NCBI RefSeq assembly: GCF_014118685.1
Contig: NZ_JACFAK010000009.1
Span: 1-64,000, forward strand
DNA: 64,000 nucleotides
From: Flaviflexus huanghaiensis
GTDB lineage: Bacteria; Actinomycetota; Actinomycetes; Actinomycetales; Actinomycetaceae
Reading direction: 5' to 3'
The position numbers and the translations under genes were made by a program. The notes under the pieces were generated by a model. It worked only from the letters and a program-made list of their open reading frames with translations. It did no database searches and was not told the origin of the DNA. Numbering within the stretch: the first letter of the stretch is position 1; each line of letters starts with the position of its first letter. Of the stretch, positions 1 to 16,474 are shown piece after piece.

Positions 1-7
1 ACATACG

Positions 8-64
8 GAGGGCCTTCCTCGGAGTGCTGGTTTCGCAACTCCCACTCAATCGCGGAAGGCCCTC
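8..64 (-). terminator. Inverted repeat, probable terminator of the LuxR-type operon
   Basis: An 11-bp perfect inverted repeat (GAGGGCCTTCC at 8-18, GGAAGGCCCTC at 54-64) flanks a smaller nested stem (GGAGT at 21-25 with ACTCC at 38-42). It lies 15 bases past the stop codon of the leftward regulator gene, so it is in the right place to end that transcript. There is no clear U-run, and the gene to the left is outside the window, so it could equally serve a convergent gene. Confidence 0.5.
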
Positions 65-79
65 TCTTCACGTCACAAG

Positions 80-1861
80 TCAGCGCGTGTCATCGCACTG
101 CCTCAACCAACCTGTCCGGTCAGTACAGCTAGGTCCGCTCGAGTGCGCGAGGAGGTCCTCTGCCTCGTCATACCGGCCCGAGAGGACAAGGTTCCACCCA
201 ATCCGGAACAGGATGAGGAGCTCGTAATCCGCAACCATCCGCTCGTCGGCCAGCGCAGCACGCGCACTGCGGGCGACCTCGAGCGCAGTCTCAGTACGAC
301 CAGCGACGGAGTGAAGGTCGGCCAGGTCAATGAGGACGCAAATACGACCATCTGCCGTGAGGTCTGGGCTCGCAAGAATGCGTTCAACCTCAGCAACGGA
401 GTGCGGCGCCGCTCTCAACCCCCGTTCAATCTGCGGAGGACGGGCTACGCCCTCCTGTCGAAACCTCGCTGGGCCTGCCAGCGCACCTTCCCGACCGGGA
501 GCACGTGACTGCTCGGCCCACCAGCGTTCGAAAGCCGCGACGTCCGCCGGGTCCCTCGTGAGCTGGTCGAAGGCCATGAGGAGAAGATGAAGGGCCTGCT
601 GACGAACAGCGTGATCGGTGCTCGTCTCAGCCACCCTCATGAGAAGAGTTCGAGCAGAGTAGTGTCGACCGAGTCCAATGAGCGTGCGCGCTCTAAGAAG
701 GTTGGCGGCGTCAGACTCTGGCGTGACTTCGGCATCGATGAGCTTCCGGGCAAGCCGGAAGTCACATCCGATGACTGCGTCCTCGACTGCACCCAGCACC
801 TGGTCAGCGGGGACGTCCGCACCGACTTCGAGTGCCCACAGTACCTGGAGCGGCGTGCGGGAGGTGGGAGCCCTGTGCTCACTCCAGGCCGCATACAGTT
901 GGGCGCTACGCCCGGGCGGGACAGTGCTGCGCAAGATCGTCGCAAAGATGTCGGACGCGATCCGAAGGAGACCGTCATGGCCCGCGGCGAGAAGGTCGGC
1001 CTCGACGAGGCGTCGATGCTCTCCACACATTGCGAAGAGCACGGACCCCGGCTGGGGCCCTGCGAGAGCCAGAAGCTCCAGCACCCTCCGGTGCTCGGCC
1101 GACAGGGACCTGGTCACGTCCCGAACAAGTTCGGTCAGCGGCTCATCCGCCTCCGGGGCGAGCCGCGCCAGGGTGAGGAGATCACCGTTTGCGACACCGG
1201 GAGAGTGCCGGAAGACAAGGCCTTGATCGAGGCAGGACTGAACGACGGCTTCAACAAAGCTTGGATTCCCGCCCGTCAAGGCGGTCATGATGTCGATGGC
1301 GGGGGCTGTGAACTCACCGCCGGCAATCTCCTCCGCAAGAAACCTCACCCCGACCCTGTCGAGGGGCTGGACAACAAGTGTGGAGAGGAGGCCCGACTCC
1401 GCCAAGGCAAACAGTGTCGACTCCGCACCTGTCCGTCCGTTGCCGATAGCGACAAGCTTGATCGCGGCATTCTCAACGAGGGTGGAGAGAACGAACGAGG
1501 TTTCGTCGTCGAGGAACTCCGCGTCCTCGACAACGACGATGGGAATGACGCCCGGCGTTTGGGCGGCTGCGAGCACGGCCCCAACCTCGCGGAGCACCTG
1601 TGCCGGGCTGTCCGTCGAGGCGCGGGCACTGAGATAGGGCGACAGCGCCCCGCATGGCTCCCCTGCCAGAGTTGGGCTCGCATGCACCCGCATGGCGGGC
1701 GGCGGTACGTCTGGCCGGGCGAGGGCAGCTCGGACAAGAGTCGTCTTGCCAATACCGAACCCGCCGAGGATGAGGGCACCGCCCGGGCCAGGCCGGGTGA
1801 GGATTGAGACGAGCTCGGTGTACTCGGCAGACTGCGCAAGCCAGACGCGATGAGGGGTCAC
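80..1861 (-). CDS. LuxR-type large ATPase regulator lacking the C-terminal HTH
   Basis: This 593-aa protein resembles the N-terminal ATPase and helical-repeat part of large LuxR-type (LAL/STAND-like) regulators. Walker A is intact (GGFGIGKTT, residues 33-41) and a Walker B-like strand VVVED follows at 109-113. The rest is alpha-helical, TPR-like sequence. The protein stops without any LuxR HTH, and the 79 bases left of the stop hold only a hairpin, so no HTH is encoded downstream in another frame. It starts at a GTG that overlaps the stop of the upstream 861-aa gene (GTGA), which implies translational coupling. It is either a truncated paralog or a genuine ATPase partner of the two HTH-bearing neighbours. 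The family is assigned by architecture and by resemblance to those neighbours. Confidence 0.7.
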   Translation of the reverse strand: MTPHRVWLAQSAEYTELVSILTRPGPGGALILGGFGIGKTTLVRAALARPDVPPPAMRVHASPTLAGEPCGALSPYLSARASTDSPAQVLREVGAVLAAAQTPGVIPIVVVEDAEFLDDETSFVLSTLVENAAIKLVAIGNGRTGAESTLFALAESGLLSTLVVQPLDRVGVRFLAEEIAGGEFTAPAIDIMTALTGGNPSFVEAVVQSCLDQGLVFRHSPGVANGDLLTLARLAPEADEPLTELVRDVTRSLSAEHRRVLELLALAGPQPGSVLFAMCGEHRRLVEADLLAAGHDGLLRIASDIFATILRSTVPPGRSAQLYAAWSEHRAPTSRTPLQVLWALEVGADVPADQVLGAVEDAVIGCDFRLARKLIDAEVTPESDAANLLRARTLIGLGRHYSARTLLMRVAETSTDHAVRQQALHLLLMAFDQLTRDPADVAAFERWWAEQSRAPGREGALAGPARFRQEGVARPPQIERGLRAAPHSVAEVERILASPDLTADGRICVLIDLADLHSVAGRTETALEVARSARAALADERMVADYELLILFRIGWNLVLSGRYDEAEDLLAHSSGPSCTDRTGWLRQCDDTR

Positions 1862-4443
1862 GATTGACCCGCCGTTCGGCTTGGTCGAGCCAACGCTGCC
1901 AGCTCATGCCGATTGCGCACGTGGAGCTTGGAGTAGACCTGGTAGAGGTGACCTTCGACGGTTCGCACGGACACTCCGTTAACCCGTGCGATCGCGGTGT
2001 TCGTCATGCCGGTGATGGCCTGCGTGGCTATCTGCGCTTCGCGCTTCGTCAGGCGCGCGAGCCACGGCTGGCGGGCGGGAGCGGGTTCCGATTCTGCTGG
2101 TTTGCCTCCCGACGTGTCGACATATGTCGTGGCGAGAAGACGGCGCTGATCCTGTCGACCGATTCTCTCAGCGAGAGTGCTCCCCTGCCCGTGGGAGTAG
2201 AGATACTGACCGCAGCGGATGAGCCTCTCAAGACCCTCTGCGAGAGCGTAGCCGTCCCCTCGGGCGACGGCGCGGGCGAGAAGTCCGTACCCCTCGGCTG
2301 CCGGGGCGGATGACGTCGCCGACAGCTGCCCAAGACGGTCCGCCGCAGAGGCGTCTCCGAGCCGTAAGGCGGCCGCGAGTGCCCCCATCTCCAGCGTCTC
2401 GTTTCCTCTGCGTCGGCAGTGTTGAGCCAGTTCCACCAGGTCGACGATCGCGCTGTCGGAGTCGTCCCGACCACGACGCAGGCAGTCGAGGATCGCCCCG
2501 GCCCACCCGAAAAAGTCGGTCGATGCGAGTCGCGGATCGATCCGGGACCTCGCAAGCCTGTCGGCCTCGAGTCTCTGGCCGCGGTCCGCGAGGCAAAAGG
2601 CTGCGGCCGCTCGAAGGCCGGCAGGCGCGGCCCCATCGAATGTGGCTGTGAGCTGGTGTGTTGCGGGGAGAAGAATGCCAAGAGCATCGTCTGTTTCGTG
2701 TGCCAGCGCTCTGAGCACGCCACTTGTGAAGTCTCCAAAGGCGATAGCGTGCGGAACCGGGTACCTGCCCGCGGCGAGCCGCGACGCCGCCGTCCCGGCC
2801 GCGCGCCAGTCGCCAGCCAAGAGGCGGACGCGCAGCAGGGTGCACTCGATGTCAACGCACTCCGAGCGCGTCATAACTTCATCAAGAACCCCGCCGAGCC
2901 GGAGTGTGGATATCGTCGTCTTGACGGAATCAGCGATCGCCAGCGCCTCGCGTTGCCTGTTTTGAAGTGACCACGCCTCGGCCTGAATCGCGCTGGCCTT
3001 GAGGTGAAGTGACTCGGTTTCCCACAGCTCGTCCGTCAGGCCAACGACGTCCCCGGGACGGCCCGAGAGGGCCGCCGCGTGTGCGGCGAGGAGTCCAACG
3101 AGTTGTTTGGCCTGGACATGGGTGCGCTCGCGAGCTCCCGTCCTCATGGCCGTTGCGAGAGCCTCTCCGGCTCGCGTCACACAGGTATCGATGTCGACCT
3201 GCCGGCCCAGCATCAGGAGCGCTCGGAACTCAACTTCAAGGATGAGCCCGCGCGTGGTGGGGTCGGCCGCCCACGCGTCGACTGAGAATCCGCCCGAGTG
3301 TTCGAACGCCTCGACGACACTGACCGCTGCGGCATTGTCGCCCAGGTCGCGACACGCCCTGGCCTCGGTCAGCACACGCGCCGCCGCCGGGTCGGTGTGA
3401 ACCTGGCTCAGTGTGTCCGCCACGTCCGCGAGCTCATTCTCGTCCGCCCGCTCTCGTAGGATGTGGGCGACGAGCGGGACGGCGATGTCGACCGATTGGG
3501 AGCTGGATTCGTCGACGGTCACGAGTCCTCGAGAGCGCAGGCTGGTGACCTCCTCCGCTAATCCGCAGTGGCGCAGGGCACTCATGCGTGCTGGACCTGC
3601 GTGGGCGAGCAACAGGAGGAGGCGGCGCTCATCGCCCGATGCGCTCACGAGCTGTGGCACACGTATGGAAGCTGGGCTGTGGAAGGGACCGGGTACGAAA
3701 ATCCAGGATCCGCCTTCGACGCGCAGTCTGCCTTGCGACACGAACTCACGGGCAACGTGCCGCATAAGTGGTCGGTTAGCCCCGCAGAAGCGCCACACCA
3801 CCGCGGCGGCGAACATCGACACCGGTCCTGCGAGCTCAGCTTCGAGGAAAGATCTCGTGCGCCCGACATTCATGCCCGGCACGTCGATCCGCACGAGCAC
3901 TCCGGAACGTTGGAGGGCCGACAGGTCGGCGGGGAGCTTCGAAGGACGCTCACACATGACAACGAGCGAGATCTTGCGCATCGTGGCAAGTTGCGCCAGG
4001 ACCGCGGCAGAGTCCGGATCAATGAGATCTGGGTTAGCGAGTGTGACGACCGTTCGCTGCTCGCCGATGAGGGCGGCGATAGCCCGCACGAGCTGATGGC
4101 GGGACACCGACGGAGTGGCCTCGAGCCGCGACAGCATAAGAGAAAGGACGCCGTACCGCGTTTGGGCGGCAAATGGACTGCCGTTGAGATGAATAATGGT
4201 GGGCCGTGGATCCACGCTGTCGACAGCACTGACGAAAGCCGCGCGCCGACCGCTACCGGCCCGGCCGACAAGAATCGCGCCACCGAGCCGATCTTGGAGA
4301 ACTCGCCGCATGACATCGAGAGGAAGTAGCTCCCTCGTATCAGCGGCGTTGCCGCCGATCGGCTCGCGGGTACGTAAAATATTTGCTCTTGGTTTCACCT
4401 GAAACCGCCCCCAGTTCGGCTTTACTCTCCAGGCGCAGCGCAC
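1858..4443 (-). CDS. LuxR-family regulator with degenerate P-loop
   Basis: This 861-aa protein ends in a LuxR-type HTH (roughly residues 798-855; contains LTKREAQIA and SVRTVEGHLYQVYSKL), which would bind DNA. The N-terminal ATPase-like domain has lost its nucleotide-binding residues: the Walker A position reads GRAGSGRR (60-67, Lys to Arg and Ser/Thr to Arg), and the Walker B strand reads TVVTLANPDL (131-140) with no acidic pair. The middle is helical repeat. The start is uncertain: the GTG at 4443 has no good Shine-Dalgarno, and an in-frame GTG 15 codons later is an alternative. A TATGAT -10-like hexamer sits at 4475-4480 on this strand. The gene is coupled to the next one by a GTGA overlap. 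Confidence 0.82.
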   Translation of the reverse strand: MRCAWRVKPNWGRFQVKPRANILRTREPIGGNAADTRELLPLDVMRRVLQDRLGGAILVGRAGSGRRAAFVSAVDSVDPRPTIIHLNGSPFAAQTRYGVLSLMLSRLEATPSVSRHQLVRAIAALIGEQRTVVTLANPDLIDPDSAAVLAQLATMRKISLVVMCERPSKLPADLSALQRSGVLVRIDVPGMNVGRTRSFLEAELAGPVSMFAAAVVWRFCGANRPLMRHVAREFVSQGRLRVEGGSWIFVPGPFHSPASIRVPQLVSASGDERRLLLLLAHAGPARMSALRHCGLAEEVTSLRSRGLVTVDESSSQSVDIAVPLVAHILRERADENELADVADTLSQVHTDPAAARVLTEARACRDLGDNAAAVSVVEAFEHSGGFSVDAWAADPTTRGLILEVEFRALLMLGRQVDIDTCVTRAGEALATAMRTGARERTHVQAKQLVGLLAAHAAALSGRPGDVVGLTDELWETESLHLKASAIQAEAWSLQNRQREALAIADSVKTTISTLRLGGVLDEVMTRSECVDIECTLLRVRLLAGDWRAAGTAASRLAAGRYPVPHAIAFGDFTSGVLRALAHETDDALGILLPATHQLTATFDGAAPAGLRAAAAFCLADRGQRLEADRLARSRIDPRLASTDFFGWAGAILDCLRRGRDDSDSAIVDLVELAQHCRRRGNETLEMGALAAALRLGDASAADRLGQLSATSSAPAAEGYGLLARAVARGDGYALAEGLERLIRCGQYLYSHGQGSTLAERIGRQDQRRLLATTYVDTSGGKPAESEPAPARQPWLARLTKREAQIATQAITGMTNTAIARVNGVSVRTVEGHLYQVYSKLHVRNRHELAALARPSRTAGQS

Positions 4444-4547
4444 TCCCTTCAGTCAGCCTGCCCGGTGGTGGTTCATCATAAGGTGCAGGTAGACCGAGAA
4501 GCACCAGTAGTCAACGTCACAACATACTCGTTTTATGACAGATCTAC

Positions 4548-6935
4548 TTACGTAGTGGGGCGCTCGTCCCGCACGGCGATCTGCGAATTCGACAGAACGG
4601 TGCGCAACTCGGCTCGGCTTCCCACGCCGAGCTTGGTGTACACCTGGTGCAGGTGGGACTCAACGGTCCGAACCGAGATCCCCATCGAGCCAGCTATGGC
4701 GCTACTGCTAAGGCCTGACAAGACCTGCTCAACAATTTCCCACTGTCTCCGGGTCAGTAACCGTGACCCCGAACCTTCCCAGCCACTCACGTGTGACGCA
4801 GCCGAGGGATTCCGCATCCTCGCAAGCTGGCCATCGACGACATCAGCGAAGAAGTACTGGCCACCGGCACGGGCGATGGCGGCTCCAATTTCCAGCGACT
4901 CCGGATCGTTGTTTCGCAATCCGTGCACGACGTTTATGCATGCCTGGGCGAACTGACTTTCAGTCCGTTGCGCTACGGCTTCGAGACGTTCGAGTACAGA
5001 CGTATGGCCCCATTGGAGGGCCGCCGAAAGAGCGAGGAGTTCGTGGGCGCGATTTTCCAGATGATGGTCGCGGTCCGCGCAGCGCATGAGTAGCTCGACG
5101 GCATCACCTTCGCGTCCGAGTAGACCTAGTGCCTGAGCGGCGAAAAAGTTTGCACTCCACGCCCAGCGCCAGATCCCGTCCACGTCGAGATCGGGTAACC
5201 CCACCCCCGCGAGCGCAACGAATGCGTCGGCTCGTTGGCCGGTGGCGGCCAACGACACTGCCGACAGTGAACCGGCCAGCGCCAGCACGCCATGGTCATC
5301 GAGAACCCGTAGCTGCGGTAACTCCAATGTGAGGATCCGGGCGCTGTCATCGAAATCTGCTGTCAAGACTCGAGCGAACGCTCGATACACGACCCCGAGT
5401 CCGTCCACATCGGCGGGCGGGCCGCCAGCCAGAGTTGTTGCGGCGCGCGTCCATTCGCCTGCCAGGAATTCAATGTCGACGAGCCCGAGCCGGATCCGTT
5501 GGATGAGAGAGGGAGCGCTCTCGGATCTCTCGAGCATGTGCAGTAGCTCCCGATTGGCTCTCAGCGCCTCGTCAACCCTCCCGGACATGGCGAGTGCCTC
5601 GTGCGATGACTGTTGCCACAGCGGCTCGAGAGAACTCGGCATCCGCGTTGCCGCTTCACGGGCTGCGAGAATGGGCCGGTAGTCTCCGCTCCATGAGGAT
5701 AAGACGAGATCAGCCGCACGCGCTGGCCCAATGACGCTAGACACGTCGTCGGCAGGTGTCGGCCGCATGCGTCTTGCGCACTCCCACGCGTCTGTGAGAC
5801 GTCCGGCGGCGATGAGCGCGCTGATCCGAACGGACGCATCCCGATCCGAATCTGAGTTGGCGGGCAAGATCCGCAGCAGGTCGACGGTCTTTGCTGGGGA
5901 CGTCACCGCGAGATGCTCAACCGCATGAAGCACACGCGTGTCATCAACATCCAACCCGCATCGAACCTGCCAAGCGACGAGTCCCGGTGGACTTCGGAAT
6001 GCGCTCCCCTCCACGCGCGCAACGACCTCATCGAGGAGACTTCGACTGCGTCCGGGCGGAACGTGGCTTGCGATCGCCTCGCCATTGGTGATCCCGCGCA
6101 GACTCGCATCCCGCCCGAGGGACCCTGTCAGATCTAGGAGCCCACGTTCGTAGACAGCGTCGACGGCATCAGCGTCGCAGACCTCCAAGAGAAGGGGAAG
6201 GGGAATCTCTCCGACGAGGGACAGAACTTCGAGCACGGTGCGGACCGCCGGATCCTCGGCGGCCAGCAAGCTCTGCCAGTGCCTGACAAGCCGTGGACCG
6301 GCATGAGGGGCAGAACGACCTAAAACCCACACACCTTCGTGGCGTAGAAGGAACGAGGCCTCGAGCCAATCCTCAACAGCCATTCTCACTCTCGCACGGT
6401 TTCCTGCGACTCCTTTCCACACAGCACACGTAGCCCGACTACTTACCGGCCCGCCCAGACCGTTTTCCACGAAACTCGCGACAGCTACTTTCGACAAGTC
6501 AGGAACCCGTACCCGGTCAAGGCCGACGAGCTGAGCGAAAGGAGCAGCGGCGGGCCGATCCCGGTCAATCCCGGCAGCAACAACGACCGCGTGGTGATGG
6601 AGGACGAGTCTGGCGACATCATCAAGCTCGGGCCCCGAGAAGGACGACACGGCGGGAATAAGGAGAACTGGCCCTGCCGAAGGCGGGGCCTGAACGTACG
6701 TGGCGAGGGATCGTGATGTTGCGGGATTCAGTGGGCTCATCAGCTCCAGTGGTGCAGCAGGTGCCGCTAATCTCCTTGCCGCCTTCCGCGCGAGGTCCTC
6801 CTGGCCGGCCCCAAAATCTCCATGTAGGAGAACGCCTGATCCGATCGAAGCGCGGCGGACGACCTCGTCAACGAAAGTATCGTCCCCCGCTGCCTCCCAG
6901 CGCGGCGGGCGACGAGCATTCGGATTCGAGACCAT
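4548..6935 (-). CDS. LuxR-family regulator with degenerate P-loop
   Basis: This 795-aa paralog of the 861-aa protein is the first gene of the leftward regulator cluster. It starts at an ATG preceded by a strong GAGGAGG ribosome site. The C-terminal LuxR HTH is intact (about residues 725-780; LLTRRQWEIVEQVLSG and SVRTVESHLHQVYTKLGV). The ATPase-like domain has GDFGAGQE at the Walker A position (39-46), replacing the essential Lys with Gln and the Ser/Thr with Glu, and the Walker B strand is LLIPAVSS (91-98). ATP binding by the usual mechanism is therefore unlikely. It diverges from the three-giant-gene operon across a 600-bp gap, which makes it a natural candidate to regulate that operon; this is inferred from position only. 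Confidence 0.82.
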   Translation of the reverse strand: MVSNPNARRPPRWEAAGDDTFVDEVVRRASIGSGVLLHGDFGAGQEDLARKAARRLAAPAAPLELMSPLNPATSRSLATYVQAPPSAGPVLLIPAVSSFSGPELDDVARLVLHHHAVVVAAGIDRDRPAAAPFAQLVGLDRVRVPDLSKVAVASFVENGLGGPVSSRATCAVWKGVAGNRARVRMAVEDWLEASFLLRHEGVWVLGRSAPHAGPRLVRHWQSLLAAEDPAVRTVLEVLSLVGEIPLPLLLEVCDADAVDAVYERGLLDLTGSLGRDASLRGITNGEAIASHVPPGRSRSLLDEVVARVEGSAFRSPPGLVAWQVRCGLDVDDTRVLHAVEHLAVTSPAKTVDLLRILPANSDSDRDASVRISALIAAGRLTDAWECARRMRPTPADDVSSVIGPARAADLVLSSWSGDYRPILAAREAATRMPSSLEPLWQQSSHEALAMSGRVDEALRANRELLHMLERSESAPSLIQRIRLGLVDIEFLAGEWTRAATTLAGGPPADVDGLGVVYRAFARVLTADFDDSARILTLELPQLRVLDDHGVLALAGSLSAVSLAATGQRADAFVALAGVGLPDLDVDGIWRWAWSANFFAAQALGLLGREGDAVELLMRCADRDHHLENRAHELLALSAALQWGHTSVLERLEAVAQRTESQFAQACINVVHGLRNNDPESLEIGAAIARAGGQYFFADVVDGQLARMRNPSAASHVSGWEGSGSRLLTRRQWEIVEQVLSGLSSSAIAGSMGISVRTVESHLHQVYTKLGVGSRAELRTVLSNSQIAVRDERPTT

Positions 6936-7465: not shown

Positions 7466-7538
7466 CGGGCAACAATGAAGTGACCTCAATCACACTCGTG
7501 GCCTCGATGCGACCGGTGTGGGAGGGAGGGGTCGGCAC

Positions 7539-10500
7539 GTGACCACTGCACTCATCAGCGCCAACAGGGCAGCCGCCGAGCGGCTAGCAGTTCTGCAAGG
7601 CACAGGCCCTCAAGGCATTCTCGCGGGCACGAGCCTCGAAACGCGCTCCTTCCACCCAGGTAACCGTACTGCTGACACGGGACTTGGAAGCGGCTCCGGC
7701 ATGACGACGATTCACGCCGATGATGGGGCAAACCGTCGCTGGACTCTCCATGACACTTCTCGCCTCGAGGATGCGGATGGCGGGGAAGTCGCCGAAACCC
7801 GTGGCACGCATGTGACCGTCACCGCCGGTGAGGGCGGCACGTACCTGCTGAGAGCCCACGACGCCTCCGGTCCCGCCGGAGAGATCCTGCTATCTGTCCC
7901 ATACATCGTCTACGTCGTCCATTCCGCCGCTTCCGTCGAACCGGAGCTCGCGGCCGCTGGCATCGACGCGGCCGACCGTGAGCATTGGTGGGGCGAGGTC
8001 ATGAGGACAGCGCGCACGGTGGCGGAGCACGTCTTGAGACCCGTCAACGCTCGTCTCAGCTGGGTGGCCGACTCGGAGAGCATTCCACCGCTCGACGCGC
8101 AACGGGAAGGCTCCTCGATGTTGGCTCGGCGCACCGCCACCGGCCAGCCAGTTCGAAGAATCGTTATCACCATCGCACTCGATGACAGTCTCCTCACCGA
8201 TGTCGAACGCTGGATCCGGGCCGTTATCCGGCAGATGACGGAGAGCGAGGAGGACGCGCAGTGGAACATGTCCATCGCGCGGCTCTTTGGACATGCGGAC
8301 GCTCCCATCTCCGCTCACGTCACTGCTCGGCTGGGCGGCACGGGCGATACCGAGGTTGACGACATCTTGCGCACGCTCGCGGCATCGCCGGATCGAGAGG
8401 GGAAGGAGCGGTGGGCAGAAATGGCGGGCAGGCTTCTCGGCGTGACGATTGGCCGTGCGGCGCTTCGCGGTATTGGACTGCGGCCGGTTGCTCAGCGCCC
8501 CGCCGGTGTCAAACCCTGCGACGTCCTCGAACCACAGCCCCGCGACGAAACAGCGTCGCTCCTCGGACTCCACCGACCCGCAGGAGCGACTATCAGCACG
8601 CTTGCCGGTGACCTCGCGGCGCTGCCGGCCGGTGCGTCGGCTGACGAGCGGCGGACTGCCATGACGCACAGGTGGGGCGATCTCGTCGAGCTCTTCGCGC
8701 GCGAATGGGGCACCGCTGCCGGATCGTCCACCCGGTACGACGTGCTGTCCGGTCTCGTCTCATCCGAGCTCCTTGAGACCGCTCGGCTGATTGCGCCGCT
8801 CCCAGCGCCCTACGGCAGGCGCGCTCTCGCGCCCGGCAGCAGGGATGCTGAGCTCGACACGACAGACGACGTCATCACCCCGGCACGCTACGGGAGCGAG
8901 CTTGACGACCCCGACGATCGACGTACGGCAATCGCTGACCTGCAGACAGATCTGCGACGCGTCGGCATCGACTACGGTCTCCATCATGCCGGGCTCTACG
9001 GGTATCGACGGATCGGCTTTAGCGGCGCCTCCGTCGACCGGTCCGTCTTCGACGGCGAGCTGGCCGACACCCCTCCCACGTACTCGGTGGCACAGAGCCG
9101 CCAAGTCCAGCGCGGGTACACGGGGCTCGCCGTGCGGGAGTTCCGCATCGCCTCCCGATATCCGAATGACGTCGTCGAAACCCCGACGCCAGTCGCGCCG
9201 TACGGCAACCGCCTCGCTGTTGCCGCCACACATGAGGAGCGGGCGGACGACGGCGAGGCGGGAGAACCGCTCGACGACGTCGACGGTGAGGTCTCCCCCG
9301 CCACCGCGCTCGAGATCCGTGCGTGGGCGTTCGCCCGTCGTCGTGTGCCCGTGGTCGTCGAGGCGCGCCAGCTCAGAGCGGGCCGGAGCGACTGGACAGT
9401 GACCGATACCGAGCTCTTTGCAAGCCCCCGCGCGCACAACCTTCTCGGGCCCAACGACATCGATTCCCGCGACCCACGCATGTTCGTCCTTGACCTGTCC
9501 GGGATGCCACAGCGGCTGAATCCGGATGCTCCGGAGGAGCGGCTCGTGCTCGGGGACTACAACGGCCAGGTGGGCGATCCTCCGCGCGACACGTACGGCG
9601 GTCCGCGCTCACGGGCTCCCCACCGCCTCGCGCCGATCACTCTCGATGCGACATTCGGCGCCGCCTCTCCCGTCCATGTCGCACCCGCCCCGGGCGCACC
9701 CGATCCGGGAGAGGACTGGCTAGCTCCGGGTACGGCGAGCACCGCCGCGCAGGTTCGCGAGTGGTTCACGTCCGCCTTCCGAGTCATCTACGCGGTGACA
9801 CAGAAAGAGACAGGCGGCTTCTGGGATGGTTTCAACGGCTGGGATCTCGCCGTCTGGAGCTACCCGCTATTCCATTACACGCTCCGTCTGCGCGGGGGCA
9901 GGCCTGGCAAGATGGCAGAGGTCGTCCGGTGGTTGCAGGTCCCAGATGACGATATTCCCGCCGATCCTCATCGCCGAGACGACGTCCACGACGCTATGAA
10001 GCAGGCCTTCCAGCGATCCTTCGGCCGGTACGGCGTTGGGGCCGGACCGATCGGGCAGAACGACCCGACAGGTTACGTCCACATCGCCGGGCTACGTAGC
10101 GCTACGGGCGAAACCCGCGGCACCCCGTGGCAGGTCGACATGGCGGCAGATGATTGGCACGGACAGAACGCGTCCGGGCAGGCACGGATGCGCGCCTTCT
10201 ACGATTCCTATGTTCAATGGTTCCGCTCCTGGCCGTGGGCGGCCCGGTTCGTCCGCAGCCTCCGGTACGACGGTGGGCTGCAGCGGCTCCTGATCGCGCA
10301 CGCCATCGACTGGAGCGCTCATGCCCTCGAGCGGAACGTGACAGGCGGGGTGGCACACAGCCTCATCACGAGCGAGGTCGCAGCAGCCGCTTACCTCCGC
10401 GCCTACGTCAAGGAGCCGGCCCAGTCGGATAACGGTTTCAACGCCGTCGAGCGCGCCTCATGGGCCGCCAACCAGCGCACTGCCGCCGAACAGTTCGTCG

Positions 10501-10643
10501 CGGGCATCACCGATGAGGGACTTCGTGATTCGGCTGGCGATGCCATACGATCCCCGGGACTATCCGTCACTGACCTGCCCACTCCGACGCAGCTGCGCGA
10601 GGCCAGGGACTGGGTCCTGCGCTCAGAGGCGGATGAAAACTGA
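7539..10643 (+). CDS. Large protein of unknown function, possible pseudo-metalloprotease; first gene of giant-protein operon
   Basis: This 1034-aa protein was not recognised. I chose the GTG at 7539 because GGAGGGAGG lies about nine bases upstream; an in-frame GTG at 7518 has no such site. It has no signal peptide or membrane segments. Residues 1-120 look beta-rich. Next comes a segment with hydrophobic strands (SVPYIVYVVHSA, RRIVITIAL) leading to TIGRAALRGIGLR around residues 303-315. That aligns with the matrixin-like consensus TIAHEIGHSLGLR, but both His are Arg and the Glu is Ala. The C-terminal third is helical and Trp-rich, including KETGGFWDGFNGWDLAVWSY with Glu757, faintly reminiscent of lysozyme-like folds; this is speculative. 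Its stop overlaps the next ATG (ATGA), so the genes are probably coupled. Confidence 0.75.
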   Translation: MTTALISANRAAAERLAVLQGTGPQGILAGTSLETRSFHPGNRTADTGLGSGSGMTTIHADDGANRRWTLHDTSRLEDADGGEVAETRGTHVTVTAGEGGTYLLRAHDASGPAGEILLSVPYIVYVVHSAASVEPELAAAGIDAADREHWWGEVMRTARTVAEHVLRPVNARLSWVADSESIPPLDAQREGSSMLARRTATGQPVRRIVITIALDDSLLTDVERWIRAVIRQMTESEEDAQWNMSIARLFGHADAPISAHVTARLGGTGDTEVDDILRTLAASPDREGKERWAEMAGRLLGVTIGRAALRGIGLRPVAQRPAGVKPCDVLEPQPRDETASLLGLHRPAGATISTLAGDLAALPAGASADERRTAMTHRWGDLVELFAREWGTAAGSSTRYDVLSGLVSSELLETARLIAPLPAPYGRRALAPGSRDAELDTTDDVITPARYGSELDDPDDRRTAIADLQTDLRRVGIDYGLHHAGLYGYRRIGFSGASVDRSVFDGELADTPPTYSVAQSRQVQRGYTGLAVREFRIASRYPNDVVETPTPVAPYGNRLAVAATHEERADDGEAGEPLDDVDGEVSPATALEIRAWAFARRRVPVVVEARQLRAGRSDWTVTDTELFASPRAHNLLGPNDIDSRDPRMFVLDLSGMPQRLNPDAPEERLVLGDYNGQVGDPPRDTYGGPRSRAPHRLAPITLDATFGAASPVHVAPAPGAPDPGEDWLAPGTASTAAQVREWFTSAFRVIYAVTQKETGGFWDGFNGWDLAVWSYPLFHYTLRLRGGRPGKMAEVVRWLQVPDDDIPADPHRRDDVHDAMKQAFQRSFGRYGVGAGPIGQNDPTGYVHIAGLRSATGETRGTPWQVDMAADDWHGQNASGQARMRAFYDSYVQWFRSWPWAARFVRSLRYDGGLQRLLIAHAIDWSAHALERNVTGGVAHSLITSEVAAAAYLRAYVKEPAQSDNGFNAVERASWAANQRTAAEQFVAGITDEGLRDSAGDAIRSPGLSVTDLPTPTQLREARDWVLRSEADEN

Positions 10644-13600
10644 TGAGCACAACCCGGCTTTTCGCCCAGCTCACCGCCCTCGGCCATGGCGGTCTCACCG
10701 ACCTGCCCCTCTTCCATGCCGTGAGGGGCCTCGGCGATGTCATCGACGTCAGAGAGGTGTGGCGCGGCGGTGCGGGCGAGGTGGACATCCTCGGTTCCGT
10801 GCGGCTTAGCGAAGAGATCGTCATCCCGGTCGGGTCACTCGACATCGCTGTCGGCTCATCCGAGATCACGGCACCGTTCGCCGTGACGTTGGATGCGGGG
10901 ACGGTCGAGCTCATTCTTCTCGTCCGATGCGTGCAGGCAGGACTGATCGACCTCAATGACGCAGAGACGCTCGGTAAGCGGCTTTCCGGTGTCGACACCA
11001 CGCATCCTCACAAGCTGGCAACGGCTCTCTCCGACATCCTGACGACGTCCGTGTCGGAACTCCCGAACCTCCGCGTCGCCATCGGCCCTCTTACGGCGCG
11101 CGTCGATCTGCCTTCCGACTGGCTGACGAGAGTCCGGCCTCTTACCGACCAGGCGGGACAGACCGTCGGGTTCGAAGAGATCCAGCAGGCACCGCCACCG
11201 TGGATCCCGCTCGGGCAGGTCAGTTTGCTCGTCTCCGCGGCTGGCATTGACATTGACCTCGACGTGGCGAACCACGTCGATATCCCGCCCGTCATGATCG
11301 CCGACACCGGGATCGTTGTCGCGATGGAGGGGGTTGTTTGGCATCACAGCGGACCGCCGCCGACCGACCTCACCGACCACGCGCTCCCACCGAACTGGCA
11401 CGGGCTCATCATCGGCAATGTCACGGTCTGGGGTCTCGACAAGATCCTCCCCGGCGCGCCCGGCGGCAGGGCTGACGGTCCGACCGGCGCAATGAGGCTG
11501 AACGACTGGATCATCGACCGAGAGGGCATCCGAGGACGCCTCTCCTTGGATTTCTCCCCTCAACCCGGTCTCATCGCTGTCCAGCGCCTCGACCTGGCGT
11601 TCGACCGCTCATGGTGGCCGACCGAGCTGGCCATGCGGGTCATTGTCGATATTGGAACCATCCTTGGGGACGAGTCGCACCGCATCACAGCATCGGCAGA
11701 TCTCCTAGTCAATCCGCAGGGCTCTTCGTCAGAGCGGTGGGCCCTCAACCTCATTGCCGATGCGACAGACGGGCCTCTCGCGAGCATCGTGCGCGGCGGA
11801 CTCGCAGGCATCGGAACAGCTGCCGCCGCCCTCGCGGCGGCAGGTGAGGGGGATGCCGCGATCATGGCGGGCGCCATCGCAGCACTCGAATCCTCCGGTC
11901 TCGGGCACATCACCGGTGCGGCGATCGACCACCTGAGCGGACGGGTCCAGCCGGTTCTCACCCCAGGAACAGGAAGTCGAGAGCTTCGTGCAGAGATTTC
12001 CATCGGAGCTCGCCTCATTCTCGAGCTCACGCTTCCGGATGGGACTGTCGAGCTCGAGCTCGGAATCGGTCACCTCACAGCTCTCGCAACTTTGAGTGCG
12101 GAGGGACCGCCCCACATCAGATCCGACTGGACACTCTCGGACGGCCTCGACGTCACACTGCCTACGACCGTTGACCTTGCCGGACTTCTCGTGATCAACG
12201 CCGTCGGACTGCGCAGAAGCCCTGACGGTCTCGTCATCGAATTCGGCGTCGAATCATCGGGCACCGGAGATGTGGCTCTTGCGGGTTTCCCCGACGCGAT
12301 CATCGTCACCTACCGGCCCACGGGGAATCCCACCATTGACGTCGCTATAACGCGCTCCGCATCCCCGATGTCGATTCTCATCCCGGGCGTTCTCTATGCA
12401 TCCGGATCCCTCTCGCACGAACCGAATGTAGCCCCGCCATTCTCCATCGGGCAGTGGGGGCAGGTGCGTCGGGGCACTCTCTCCGCATTCCTCATTGGGA
12501 ACGGCACAGCTCGCTCGGCAGACGACCATCTGCGCAAGTCGGCCTACGCGTTCGACCTGGAGATCGGCGTCGTGACAGCCACCCGGGATGATGGTCTCCA
12601 GGCCGTCATTCTCACTCTCGACGCCGGCTTCCGACCGGGCCTGCCCCTGGGGACCTCTGGAGCGTCCCTCTACGAGCTTGGCCTGACGTTCGCGATGAAC
12701 GGGGCTCCCACCGCCGCGGGCGGTGACTATGCCTCCTGGTTCCTTGAGGCGCCGCCAGCCTATTCGACCGGGATCGAGAAGTGGCGCCCCGAGGCGGGCG
12801 GCTGGGCCTTCGGCGCGTCGGCGACCCTCGGTTCCTCACCGGACGACGGCCGCTCATGGAACGCAGGCGTCGGTCTCTTCCTCCTTCTTCCCGGGCCGGT
12901 TGTTCTCATCACCGGAGAGGGGAACCTCTTCTCCGCGCTTCCCAGCCTGCCCGCCCAGGGCGGCGACCCCGACGCGCTGTCATTTGGCTTCGGCGCGGTT
13001 CTCACCCTCGACTTCGGTCGCCATTTCTTTGGCGCCTCATTCCACGGAATGCTCGAGAAGACCGCCGGGGAGGCAACACTTGTCCGCGCCACCATCCCCG
13101 CCGACATCTCCATCGATCTGGATGACCCGACAAACTTCACGCTCGCAATAGGACGTCCTGAACCGCCCGCTGACCGAGTCCAGATCAACTTGCTGGGCAT
13201 GTTCGACGCGTCATCGTACCTCCTGCTCTCCGGAACGGACGTGCTCCTGCCGGGCGTGGAACCCCCGCTCACTCTGCCTGGGCTCGCCCTCGCCTTCGGC
13301 GCTGCCGGCGGCTTCGATCGCCGCCTGAAGGCGGGCCCAGCGCGGGTCGTGCTGTGGGCACGCGCCGGGTTTGATGTCGGCCTGTCGCTCTCTCTTCCTC
13401 TGGCAGCGGGACGCGTCTACCTCGAGGGCGGCCTCGATGTGTCGGTCTACGGCGTCGGATTGTCGCTCGAGGCGGCGCTCAACCTCGTCGCCATGGCCCC
13501 CGATCCGTTCATGCTCACAGGATCCGCACGGGTGCGGATCGGCCTACCCTGGCCTCTACCCGACATCAACGCCTCGGCGACGATCGAGCTCGCGCCAACA

Positions 13601-16474
13601 CGCGAGTGGGTCTTCGACGCGCCCCGACCCGATGCGCCGGTTGAGACGCTCACCCTGTGGGGTGCGGGCACCGGCGCCCCCACCGTTCTCAAACCCGGTG
13701 AGACCGGCAGCGGGATTCCGCTCGACGTGCTCGCGGAGATCGTGTTCTCCGCACCCGTCGGCAACGACACGCCAACAATCGGCTGCGCCGCGACAGACGG
13801 CGACGACGCTGATGCTCCCGTGTGGGAGGTGGCGACAGCGGAGACGGATGAGGACGGGTTCGAACGACGGCACGGCTACCGCCACGTCGTCTCGTCCGTC
13901 ACGGTCACGCGCACGACGCCGCACGGAGCGGTTCCGGAGGAGGACATCCCCGCCTTCTGGCCCGGGGGCACGGCAATCGGCGCTGTCAGAGGCCTTCACT
14001 CCGACGTGCCGCGGACGGCAGGCGGCATGCCCGCACGAACGAGCCTGCGGCTCTGGCAGCTGGGGGACCTCGCCGCAGCTCGGGTGGGCAACGGAGCGGA
14101 GATCGTCGCGCGCTGGGCACAGACGTGGGATCCTTGCGCGCAGCCGGACGACGACGAGAAGAGTCTCCAGCGCCTCTACACCGCGCGCTCCCTTACTGCC
14201 AGGCTGACAGAGCAGGCCTTCGTCCCGCCTGTCACGGGTCCGGGCACGTGGCCGATCCGTCGTCCCTTCCCTCTGCCGTTCGGGGAGGACCGCACCCCGG
14301 GCGACTGGTCACACAGTCTGTCGCGAGCCGCAGAGAAGGCGCTCACTCGATTCGACTCCCTGCCACATATCTCCCGGCTCAACGAGTCGGGCAGGACGAT
14401 GATCAACATCGATGAGGTCGTGGAGCTGCTTCCGGGCACGCGCGGTTCCGCGCGGCGAGAGCGAGGGTGGGAACGCACCAGGTCTAGGGAGGAGAGGATG
14501 TCCGAGCCCTCGTTCGCACCGTTGCGTCACGTTGTCGCCTCGCGACTCGGCCTGCAGACCGACCGGCGCTCCGCGACCGACAGAGTCTGGGAGTTGGCAC
14601 CCGGCGGACTCCTGCCCCCGTGGTGGAGCCGCAGGCTCGCGACCGCACCGATGCCAGCCGATGATGTCGCAATCCTTCCCAATGACACACCGCCGGACGA
14701 CGTCGTCGCTCGGGCACGAGCTGAATCGCCGCCTGCGACAGGATCGACGATGGCTCGCCTCCTCGATGCTGAGGTTGAGCCCGCGCGCATTGCCCGCAAC
14801 CCAGCTTCGATCAACGTCCCTCTGCTGACACCGATCGAGGCCGACGAGCCCGTCTTCGCGCTTCCGCGACTCATCCTCCCGACGATGCCGGCTGGTGCCG
14901 AGGAGCGTCTGGCTGCCCTCGCTGTGGAGACCGTCGGCAGGCTCCGCATAGATCTGACGGACACTGAGCAGGCAACTGCGATCCTTCTCGCCGCTCCGGG
15001 GGTACATGTCATCGCCTGGCAGACCGGTGCTGATGGACAGGAGCGGCGCATCGAGAACGTCGCCACCACCGACGTCCACATCGGGGACCGCAGGGTGTGG
15101 CGCCGCGTGCGATTCACCTCCATCGGGCCGGTCATCGCCCTGAGATTCGCCGCTGTCCACGGGCCGCTCAAGGTCCAGGTGACCGATGAGGCGGCCGTCG
15201 CCGCGCTCACGAGCGTCGAGTGCTTCCCTCTCCCGCGCAACGAGCACGCTGCCCGCGACCGTCATCGCACCGCAACGGACACTGCGGTGCGTCTCCTTCG
15301 CGACGCGGCGCAGACGTGGCAGGGCGAGTCCGGCACCCCCGCAGGAATACTCTCGCCGGACACCGACTATGAGATCGTCGTCGCTGGGACATCGGAGGCT
15401 GTCACCCTCGGACGATCGGGGCTTGAGAAGGGCTCGGCACAATGGTCCTGGGAGCGACGATTCACGTTCACGACGACGTCCGCTCTGGCTGGTCGTTTGC
15501 GTGCCTACCCGGACGAGGCGCCGCACGAGGGCCGCGTGGCCGAGGACGGGTCGAGGGAGAGCGACTGGGAGGTGGCGACCTCACCCGGTGACGGCAGCAC
15601 CGCATACTATACGGCCGAGCCTCTCCTCGTACGGTTGCGCGACGCGCGGACCGTCGCTGTGGCCGATGCACTGAACTTCGACCTGCGGGTGCGCCTTGTC
15701 GATGAGCGGGGTGTTGTGACTGAGCACCTCAACGAGGTATCACTCACAGACCCGACGGACGTCGACGCCCACATCGCAGCCCTTCGCGAGCGGCTGGGCG
15801 AATTTCCCTGCGTTGCAGACAGCCGCGGTGGTGAGATCTGGCGAGAGGCGCGGATCGCCCTGCCGGATCTGCTCGCTCCGCGCACGCGATACGTCGCCAC
15901 ACTTCAGGCTGTACCGCGCGGCGGCGGCCCAGCCGTCGAGCTGCACTCGTGGCGGTTTCGCACCTCCGCTCATCGTGACCCCGCCGCTCACCTTTCGGCA
16001 CATACGATCGTCGACGTCCTCATCCCCGACCCAGACGGCATTATCGCCAGAGTCGGAGCCGCCGCGCCCGGCGGGATCGTCATCGACGACGCCACGTTCG
16101 ATGAGTGGCTCATCGACCGGTGCGGATTTCCGGCATCCCCAGCACCACAGAACTGCGAGCTCGCTCGCCTGTGGGCGTGGGATCCGGCGACGGATGGGGT
16201 TGTCTGCATCGGTTTGCTCCTCGACGGTGACGAACCGCTACTCCGCGGCTCACGTTCCGGCTTGGCAACCGGTCGAGCGCAGATCGTCGTCCGCCAAGGA
16301 GGCAGCGAGATCGCCCTGACAGCGTTCACCGGAGTGAGCACGTCGCGCGTTCTCCTCCTGCCAGCCACCCCGAACCTGCCCGGCACGATCGAGATAGCGC
16401 TGCGTAGCCATCCCAATGCGAGGATCGCGGTCCCCATTCCCGCAGTTCCCGACAATCTGGACGGAGCGCTATGA
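10643..16474 (+). CDS. Giant beta-rich protein of unknown function (1943 aa)
   Basis: This is the middle gene of the operon, joined to both neighbours by ATGA overlaps. No signal peptide or transmembrane helix is apparent despite its size. Residues about 290-985 are alternating short hydrophobic beta strands rich in Gly, Leu and Asp (for example YGVGLSLEAALNLVAMAP and RVYLEGGLDVSVYGVG near 930). This pattern recalls very large DUF6603-like repetitive proteins, but I can only suggest that. Two segments near 1573-1620 and 1746-1785 have an Ig-like/Fn3-like signature (PDTDYEIVV...FTFTTT and APRTRYVATL...WRFRTS). A basic, charged region near 1270-1300 separates the two halves. The overall design suggests a large structural or scaffold protein that stays in the cytoplasm or leaves by a non-Sec route. 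Confidence 0.75.
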   Translation: MSTTRLFAQLTALGHGGLTDLPLFHAVRGLGDVIDVREVWRGGAGEVDILGSVRLSEEIVIPVGSLDIAVGSSEITAPFAVTLDAGTVELILLVRCVQAGLIDLNDAETLGKRLSGVDTTHPHKLATALSDILTTSVSELPNLRVAIGPLTARVDLPSDWLTRVRPLTDQAGQTVGFEEIQQAPPPWIPLGQVSLLVSAAGIDIDLDVANHVDIPPVMIADTGIVVAMEGVVWHHSGPPPTDLTDHALPPNWHGLIIGNVTVWGLDKILPGAPGGRADGPTGAMRLNDWIIDREGIRGRLSLDFSPQPGLIAVQRLDLAFDRSWWPTELAMRVIVDIGTILGDESHRITASADLLVNPQGSSSERWALNLIADATDGPLASIVRGGLAGIGTAAAALAAAGEGDAAIMAGAIAALESSGLGHITGAAIDHLSGRVQPVLTPGTGSRELRAEISIGARLILELTLPDGTVELELGIGHLTALATLSAEGPPHIRSDWTLSDGLDVTLPTTVDLAGLLVINAVGLRRSPDGLVIEFGVESSGTGDVALAGFPDAIIVTYRPTGNPTIDVAITRSASPMSILIPGVLYASGSLSHEPNVAPPFSIGQWGQVRRGTLSAFLIGNGTARSADDHLRKSAYAFDLEIGVVTATRDDGLQAVILTLDAGFRPGLPLGTSGASLYELGLTFAMNGAPTAAGGDYASWFLEAPPAYSTGIEKWRPEAGGWAFGASATLGSSPDDGRSWNAGVGLFLLLPGPVVLITGEGNLFSALPSLPAQGGDPDALSFGFGAVLTLDFGRHFFGASFHGMLEKTAGEATLVRATIPADISIDLDDPTNFTLAIGRPEPPADRVQINLLGMFDASSYLLLSGTDVLLPGVEPPLTLPGLALAFGAAGGFDRRLKAGPARVVLWARAGFDVGLSLSLPLAAGRVYLEGGLDVSVYGVGLSLEAALNLVAMAPDPFMLTGSARVRIGLPWPLPDINASATIELAPTREWVFDAPRPDAPVETLTLWGAGTGAPTVLKPGETGSGIPLDVLAEIVFSAPVGNDTPTIGCAATDGDDADAPVWEVATAETDEDGFERRHGYRHVVSSVTVTRTTPHGAVPEEDIPAFWPGGTAIGAVRGLHSDVPRTAGGMPARTSLRLWQLGDLAAARVGNGAEIVARWAQTWDPCAQPDDDEKSLQRLYTARSLTARLTEQAFVPPVTGPGTWPIRRPFPLPFGEDRTPGDWSHSLSRAAEKALTRFDSLPHISRLNESGRTMINIDEVVELLPGTRGSARRERGWERTRSREERMSEPSFAPLRHVVASRLGLQTDRRSATDRVWELAPGGLLPPWWSRRLATAPMPADDVAILPNDTPPDDVVARARAESPPATGSTMARLLDAEVEPARIARNPASINVPLLTPIEADEPVFALPRLILPTMPAGAEERLAALAVETVGRLRIDLTDTEQATAILLAAPGVHVIAWQTGADGQERRIENVATTDVHIGDRRVWRRVRFTSIGPVIALRFAAVHGPLKVQVTDEAAVAALTSVECFPLPRNEHAARDRHRTATDTAVRLLRDAAQTWQGESGTPAGILSPDTDYEIVVAGTSEAVTLGRSGLEKGSAQWSWERRFTFTTTSALAGRLRAYPDEAPHEGRVAEDGSRESDWEVATSPGDGSTAYYTAEPLLVRLRDARTVAVADALNFDLRVRLVDERGVVTEHLNEVSLTDPTDVDAHIAALRERLGEFPCVADSRGGEIWREARIALPDLLAPRTRYVATLQAVPRGGGPAVELHSWRFRTSAHRDPAAHLSAHTIVDVLIPDPDGIIARVGAAAPGGIVIDDATFDEWLIDRCGFPASPAPQNCELARLWAWDPATDGVVCIGLLLDGDEPLLRGSRSGLATGRAQIVVRQGGSEIALTAFTGVSTSRVLLLPATPNLPGTIEIALRSHPNARIAVPIPAVPDNLDGAL

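Follow-up and report, generated by a model that had tools for sequence, protein, structure and literature searches.

STAND-type transcription regulators are usually drawn as homo-oligomers in which every chain carries its own nucleotide switch. In the passages cited here, STAND regulators such as MalT multimerise when ADP is exchanged for ATP (PMC4381067, PMC6468293), and the large LuxR regulators (LALs) are described by a Walker A motif together with a helix-turn-helix (HTH) domain (PMC3282765, PMC9628970). A single cluster may hold more than one of them, as with GdmRI/GdmRII and NysRI/NysRIII in the passages that describe these pairs (PMC6784220, PMC3282765). Here we describe three tandem regulator genes, which we call LAL0, LAL1 and LAL2, at the start of a 64,000-nucleotide stretch of Flaviflexus huanghaiensis DNA (contig NZ_JACFAK010000009.1, assembly GCF_014118685.1; the whole stretch is referred to as the window). 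The locus resembles the Gdm and Nys clusters in having several LALs, but in the passages at hand both GdmRI and GdmRII are described with a Walker motif and no fixed division into pseudo and active sites is mentioned (PMC6784220), and those pairs belong to antibiotic clusters whereas genes of the window type mostly lie near a surface-polysaccharide cluster. On balance, we favor an explanation in which three full-length STAND/LAL regulators, encoded together in one operon, would form a hetero-oligomer with LAL2 as its nucleotide switch, LAL2 having been broken in this strain by an insertion sequence (IS).

The genes occupy the minus strand of the window as consecutive open reading frames (ORFs) of 795, 861 and 593 aa, with the P-loop texts that had been quoted from an inspection of the sequence alone (the sequence-only reading). 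LAL0 (4548..6935, minus strand, 795 aa) has GDFGAGQE at Walker A, a Walker B strand without an acidic residue and a GerE HTH at residues 726-777, and LAL1 (1858..4443, minus strand, 861 aa) has GRAGSGRR at Walker A, TVVTLANPD at Walker B and a GerE HTH at residues 797-852; Pfam detects GerE in both proteins, and the earlier description of the two as C-terminal HTH proteins with degenerate Walker A and B sites is thereby confirmed. The third ORF (80-1861, minus strand) consists largely of the 5' part of LAL2 (128..1861, minus strand, 578 codons), encoding a STAND ATPase domain with GGFGIGKTT at Walker A and VVVED at Walker B and then the start of a tetratricopeptide repeat (TPR)-like region, and its final 15 codons are IS sequence. 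A Pfam scan of this 593-aa ORF returned no GerE HTH, and its AAA_22/AAA_16 matches were weak and under the curated cut-offs. The LAL1 stop and the LAL2 start overlap by 4 bp (GTGA).

AlphaFold models of LAL1 (pLDDT 83.9) and LAL0 (pLDDT 81.4) predict helical repeats between an alpha/beta N-terminal region and an HTH at the C-terminus. In Foldseek searches the TPR-STAND structure 6mfv ranked second for LAL1 and first for LAL0, the maltose-system entry 8bob, whose chain we take to be MalT, ranked fourth for LAL1, and MalT domain III (1hz4) ranked 44th for LAL0; ORC and RFC chains also occurred among the structural matches. Full-length TM-scores were low, and the fold matches support the domain class only, that is, a predicted STAND domain plus a TPR-like domain.

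In this strain an IS481-family insertion splits LAL2, and the repeated element is the point at which the assembly broke. Window base 1 is also base 1 of its contig (C46, in a draft of 46 contigs), and the 593-aa ORF ends at base 80, inside the left end of the element (1..127, minus strand; TGTACTGACCGG...), which supplies its last 15 codons and stop and reaches the contig edge. Abutting this end is the 6-bp target-site duplication CCTAGC (128..133, minus strand), whose second copy adjoins the opposite end of the IS, on contig C23, where a transposase-like C-terminus, the IS end and CCTAGC are followed by the 3' part of LAL2 (134-997, 287 codons), which ends in a GerE HTH (7.8e-15). C23:16-126 encodes a C-terminus like residues 283-319 of a congener's transposase (51% identity), and 25 of the outermost 35 bases of the C23 IS end match the left end in inverted orientation. 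CCTAGC is read in phase 0 on both contigs (window 133..128 and C23 128..133), and the two parts, which we compared separately and did not join, total 865 codons, compared with the 867 aa of the congener protein; it is from the IS ends, the shared CCTAGC, the matching phase and this agreement in length that the split follows. The 593-aa ORF thus lacks an HTH because the insertion divides the gene and leaves the HTH half on C23. According to passages on the family, IS481-type elements duplicate NCTAGN and can draw the transposase stop from it (PMC2516522, PMC6794481), and CCTAGC here flanks both sides. The element is assigned to the family by sequence similarity, through the congener transposase (P0010; NF033577 transpos_IS481, 344 bits, cut-off 224) and the C23 C-terminus, its full transposase not having been recovered from the draft.

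The same ends recur elsewhere in the assembly. A 130-base query from the left end gave 8 matches at 99-100% identity, all at contig ends and all abutting CTAG (on C7, C11 twice, C12, C13, C18, C43 and C46), and the right end is present in 7 of 11 contig ends examined (C1, C3, C9, C10, C13, C23 and C45), each abutting CTAG, with CCTAGC following only that of C23. The draft is fragmented by this multicopy element of the IS481 family, whose ends all abut CTAG wherever they were read, and further genes that lie at the ends of contigs may be interrupted likewise.

The gene is whole in a congener (G004), which carries the trio intact and with its gene order unchanged (796, 844 and 867 aa; 65-72% identity to the window genes), with GerE in all three, followed by a gene for the same 517-aa sugar transferase that comes after the LAL2 tail on C23. 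Taken together with the congener, the trio covers 795-867 aa and has a C-terminal GerE HTH in all three genes (in LAL2 by way of its 3' half, P0004), and in this it resembles the MalT-type STAND regulators, which share the size of ~800-900 aa, the N-terminal STAND NTPase-like domain, the helical-repeat middle (predicted by the models here) and the GerE HTH. LAL2 is like them also in its canonical Walker A and B; LAL0 and LAL1 are unlike them, without GK[ST] in any sampled ortholog and standing in a fixed order ahead of LAL2. Homology and predicted fold mark LAL0 and LAL1 as pseudo-ATPases derived from LALs, and by motif they do not belong to the ATP-binding members of the class; LAL2 alone of the three has the Walker A of the class. 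As for the third protein, the sequence-only reading was right about its Walker sites and its frame, but the missing HTH is the work of the IS split and does not characterize the gene itself; that split and the full-length orthologs rule out that the third gene lost its HTH in the course of evolution. The idea that ATP binding and DNA binding had been divided between chains fails with it, since LAL2 orthologs carry the HTH (in the 867-aa protein of the congener and in 11 of 11 scanned), a result that the sequence-only reading had itself named as refuting it.

We assessed how stable the Walker sites are by scanning named genomes with a profile of the LAL1 alignment and keeping the 80 top-scoring of 274 relatives, at 78 loci; the loci were picked by similarity to LAL1, and frequencies among them do not represent LALs in general. 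The LAL proteins of the scanned and fetched loci were aligned to one hidden Markov model and placed in a tree of 283 proteins, from which L055 (on the same contig as L030), P0001 and P0004 (gene halves) and matches under 600 aa were left out. Site counts score GK[ST], which 64 of the 283 lack, with 1 unscored; a pattern that also demanded the first-position G gave 80 of 283 degenerate, some of them A-for-G variants with GK[ST] intact, and was not used.

The three genes form separate clades, LAL0 with 10 members (support 1.0), LAL1 with 23 (0.994) and LAL2 with 22 (1.0), and GK[ST] at the P-loop is missing in all 10 LAL0 and all 23 LAL1 and kept in 19 of the 22 LAL2. Arginine replaces the Walker A lysine in 15 of 15 aligned LAL1, none of the 23 has lysine, and the loop reads GSGRR in 13/23 and DRR in 6/23; in LAL0 it reads GAGQ or GTGQ in 6/10. 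When Walker A was sought anywhere in the aligned chain, none was found in LAL1, and LAL0 gave one match (L058), near the C-terminus only. An acidic residue stands at the aligned Walker B position in 0/10 LAL0, 2/23 LAL1 and 18/22 LAL2, the remaining 4 LAL2 having D one position later. Pfam scans covered 15 of the 23 LAL1 plus P0006 and P0008, 8 of the 10 LAL0 plus P0005, and 11 of the 22 LAL2; AAA_16 was found at E <= 0.001 in 11/11 LAL2, 0/15 LAL1 and 1/8 LAL0, and GerE in all 34 orthologs scanned (15 LAL1, 8 LAL0 and 11 LAL2) and also in the congener proteins P0005, P0006 and P0007. By Fitch parsimony the site losses need at least 5 changes, compared with a mean of 58 for shuffled labels. 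On these alignments, Walker status follows ortholog groups and not chance. Random variation of the P-loops among strains, which the sequence-only reading had named as a result that would count against it, is not what we see (GK[ST] in 0/23 LAL1, 0/10 LAL0 and 19/22 LAL2), and the split that it had asked to be checked in orthologous clusters is kept there for the pseudo and active sites and not for a third gene without an HTH.

The order of the genes is conserved as well. In all 22 LAL1 loci outside the window LAL2 directly follows LAL1, and in 21 of the 22 its start overlaps the LAL1 stop by 4 bp in frame, an overlap that suggests matched synthesis of the two proteins; LAL0 is present in 10 of the 23 LAL1 loci, the window included. 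We compared the neighborhoods of 17 of the 22 with C23 and the window, and in 15 of the 17, as on C23, LAL2 is followed within ~1.2 kb by a sugar transferase gene; the two misses are L052 and Actinomycetales bacterium JB111, the contig of the latter ending ~0.6 kb past LAL2. The C23 enzyme is classed by NCBIfam as an exopolysaccharide polyprenyl glycosylphosphotransferase (394 bits, cut-off 296), and farther along C23 come genes for a Gfo/Idh oxidoreductase, an epimerase, DegT aminotransferases, a hexapeptide transferase and a glycosyltransferase. LAL1-type and LAL2 genes are thus mostly found upstream of a surface-polysaccharide cluster.

The pair is thinly spread among the genomes searched. 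LAL2 occurs in 2 of 6 genomes of the genus (its own included), and LAL1 in at least 3 of 213 genomes of the family, one of them JB111 (G039). An order-wide scan at E 1e-100 found LAL1 in at least 4 and LAL2 in at least 7 of 396 genomes, these genome scans giving lower bounds with few candidates scored per genome; on inspection the pairs of G471 and G304, like those of G497 and G128, are other LAL pairs that retain GK[ST], which leaves LAL1 proper in 3 of the 396.

In the mechanism that we favor, each regulator would consist of an N-terminal NTPase-like domain, a TPR-like middle and a C-terminal LuxR HTH, and LAL0, LAL1 and LAL2 would be made together. A mixed oligomer would then assemble on DNA upstream of the polysaccharide cluster, every subunit being able to bind DNA, with LAL2 as the ADP/ATP switch that licenses assembly and LAL0 and LAL1 as partners in a fixed state, which would not read nucleotide and might add DNA contacts or ligand sensing. 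The part given to LAL2 is inferred from the MalT-like multimerisation on exchange of ADP for ATP and from the anatomy of the proteins. The earlier suggestion that one ATP-binding paralog is the shared switch of two pseudo-ATPase partners gains support from the conserved gene order and the 4-bp overlap. In this strain the insertion should deprive the operon of a switch subunit able to bind DNA. More tentatively, and with rather less than even confidence, we extend this to a conserved hetero-oligomeric STAND factor in which LAL2 would switch the nucleotide-blind, DNA-binding LAL1 and LAL0 and control surface-polysaccharide genes. In a second branch of this tandem-pair family it is the beta partner that has lost the P-loop lysine, so that one site may have been lost more than once in obligate pairs.

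How far pairing and site loss go together can be judged from the other tandem LALs in the sample, where we counted 125 tandem alpha-beta pairs in 83 loci, in gene orders such as abab, ab and aab. Both sites are intact in 83 pairs, only the alpha site is lost in 19, only the beta site in 10 and both in 12, with 1 unscored. All 19 alpha-only losses are LAL1-LAL2 pairs, as are 3 of the 12 double losses; the remaining 9 double losses combine an alpha GKAT with a beta GASS-like loop. The 10 beta-only losses, in Arthrobacter and Paenarthrobacter loci, imply that either partner can lose its site.

We also observed among these pairs that the beta protein has lost the P-loop lysine (GLGASS-like) in 10 with an intact alpha and 9 with a GKAT alpha, the loci with beta losses being L059, L063, L069, L071, L079, L081, L083, L089, L091-L093, L095, L099, L102, L105, L108, L111, L114 and L117. 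Separately, the Arthrobacter loci L057, L064-L067, L072-L074 and L076 hold arrays of five tandem LAL genes over ~14 kb.

Several observations weigh against a hetero-oligomer switched by LAL2. Lysine is retained in 4 of 10 LAL0 (L058, L110, L113 and L115), as GKAP or GKRT, and some LAL0 might therefore still bind nucleotide. In L110, L113 and L115, all from Arthrobacter and 3 of the 22 LAL2 loci, LAL2 is itself disrupted (GSRK[RS]) beside a LAL0 with GKRT, and no gene of these trios has a canonical nucleotide site. Of the 103 tandem pairs led by a gene other than LAL1, 83 retain both sites, so pairing does not need a dead subunit. The parsimony minimum of 5 changes means that few independent events stand behind the large counts, the 4-bp overlap is absent in JB111 (L030), and proximity to polysaccharide genes is a correlation only.

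The main rival has each of the three regulators acting on its own: LAL0 and LAL1 would be DNA-binding regulators independent of ATP, perhaps ligand sensors, each with its own targets, and the tandem order would reflect only duplication and co-transcription; we consider this a serious possibility, if the less likely one. Each regulator does have its own HTH, LAL0 is found in just 10 of the 23 LAL1 loci, and LALs commonly stand in tandem at the loci sampled. GdmRI and GdmRII are likewise two LALs, each of them needed, and the cited passages report no complex between them (PMC6784220). Independent action is harder to square with a LAL1 that is followed by LAL2 in 22 of 22 loci, with the 4-bp overlap in 21 of 22, and with a division of site status that follows the pair.

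It is very improbable that LAL0 and LAL1 are decaying copies and their degenerate P-loops relics. Such decay would fit the absence of GK[ST] from both and the near-constant absence of the Walker B acid, but measured against the congener dN/dS (the ratio of nonsynonymous to synonymous divergence; rough values, with dS near or above 1) is ~0.18 for LAL0 and 0.13-0.19 for LAL1, like the 0.10-0.24 of the LAL2 parts, the LAL1 replacement is conserved (Arg in 15/15) and GerE persists in every ortholog scanned. Because of the low dN/dS and the conserved replacement, the genes with dead-looking sites are, by these sequence comparisons, under selection and not drifting. That the 593-aa protein evolved to do without an HTH, as a subunit devoted to ATP binding, is scarcely credible given the IS insertion with its target duplication, the HTH half elsewhere in the genome and the full-length orthologs, even if the open frame at 80-1861 may still yield a shortened protein in this strain.

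Divergent from the LAL operon, the plus strand of the window carries three abutting ORFs of 1041, 1943 and 936 aa (7518-19281). They had no match in PHROGs (all three), in Pfam (the first and third searched whole, the second in part) or in NCBIfam (the first whole, the second in part).

ORC, the clamp loaders and paired NLRs have related P-loop folds, with inactive subunits in structural roles. Compared with these systems the trio offers an analogy only: the split has no shared ancestry with theirs, and a complex would here be deduced from the genes. A search of open-license PMC literature by titles and abstract starts gave no description of LALs that are conserved as pseudo-ATPases beside an active partner. 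The locus also warns that a protein which looks odd at the edge of a contig can be an artefact of an insertion; here the domain that seemed to be absent was found where another contig begins. If the explanation that we favor is true, this strain would be a natural knock-out of the switch subunit, and the roles of the subunits would be testable in easily grown soil actinobacteria. A conserved, co-translated set in which one subunit is the switch and one or two others are dead would then be a bacterial transcription-factor counterpart of the assemblies of active and inactive AAA+ proteins.

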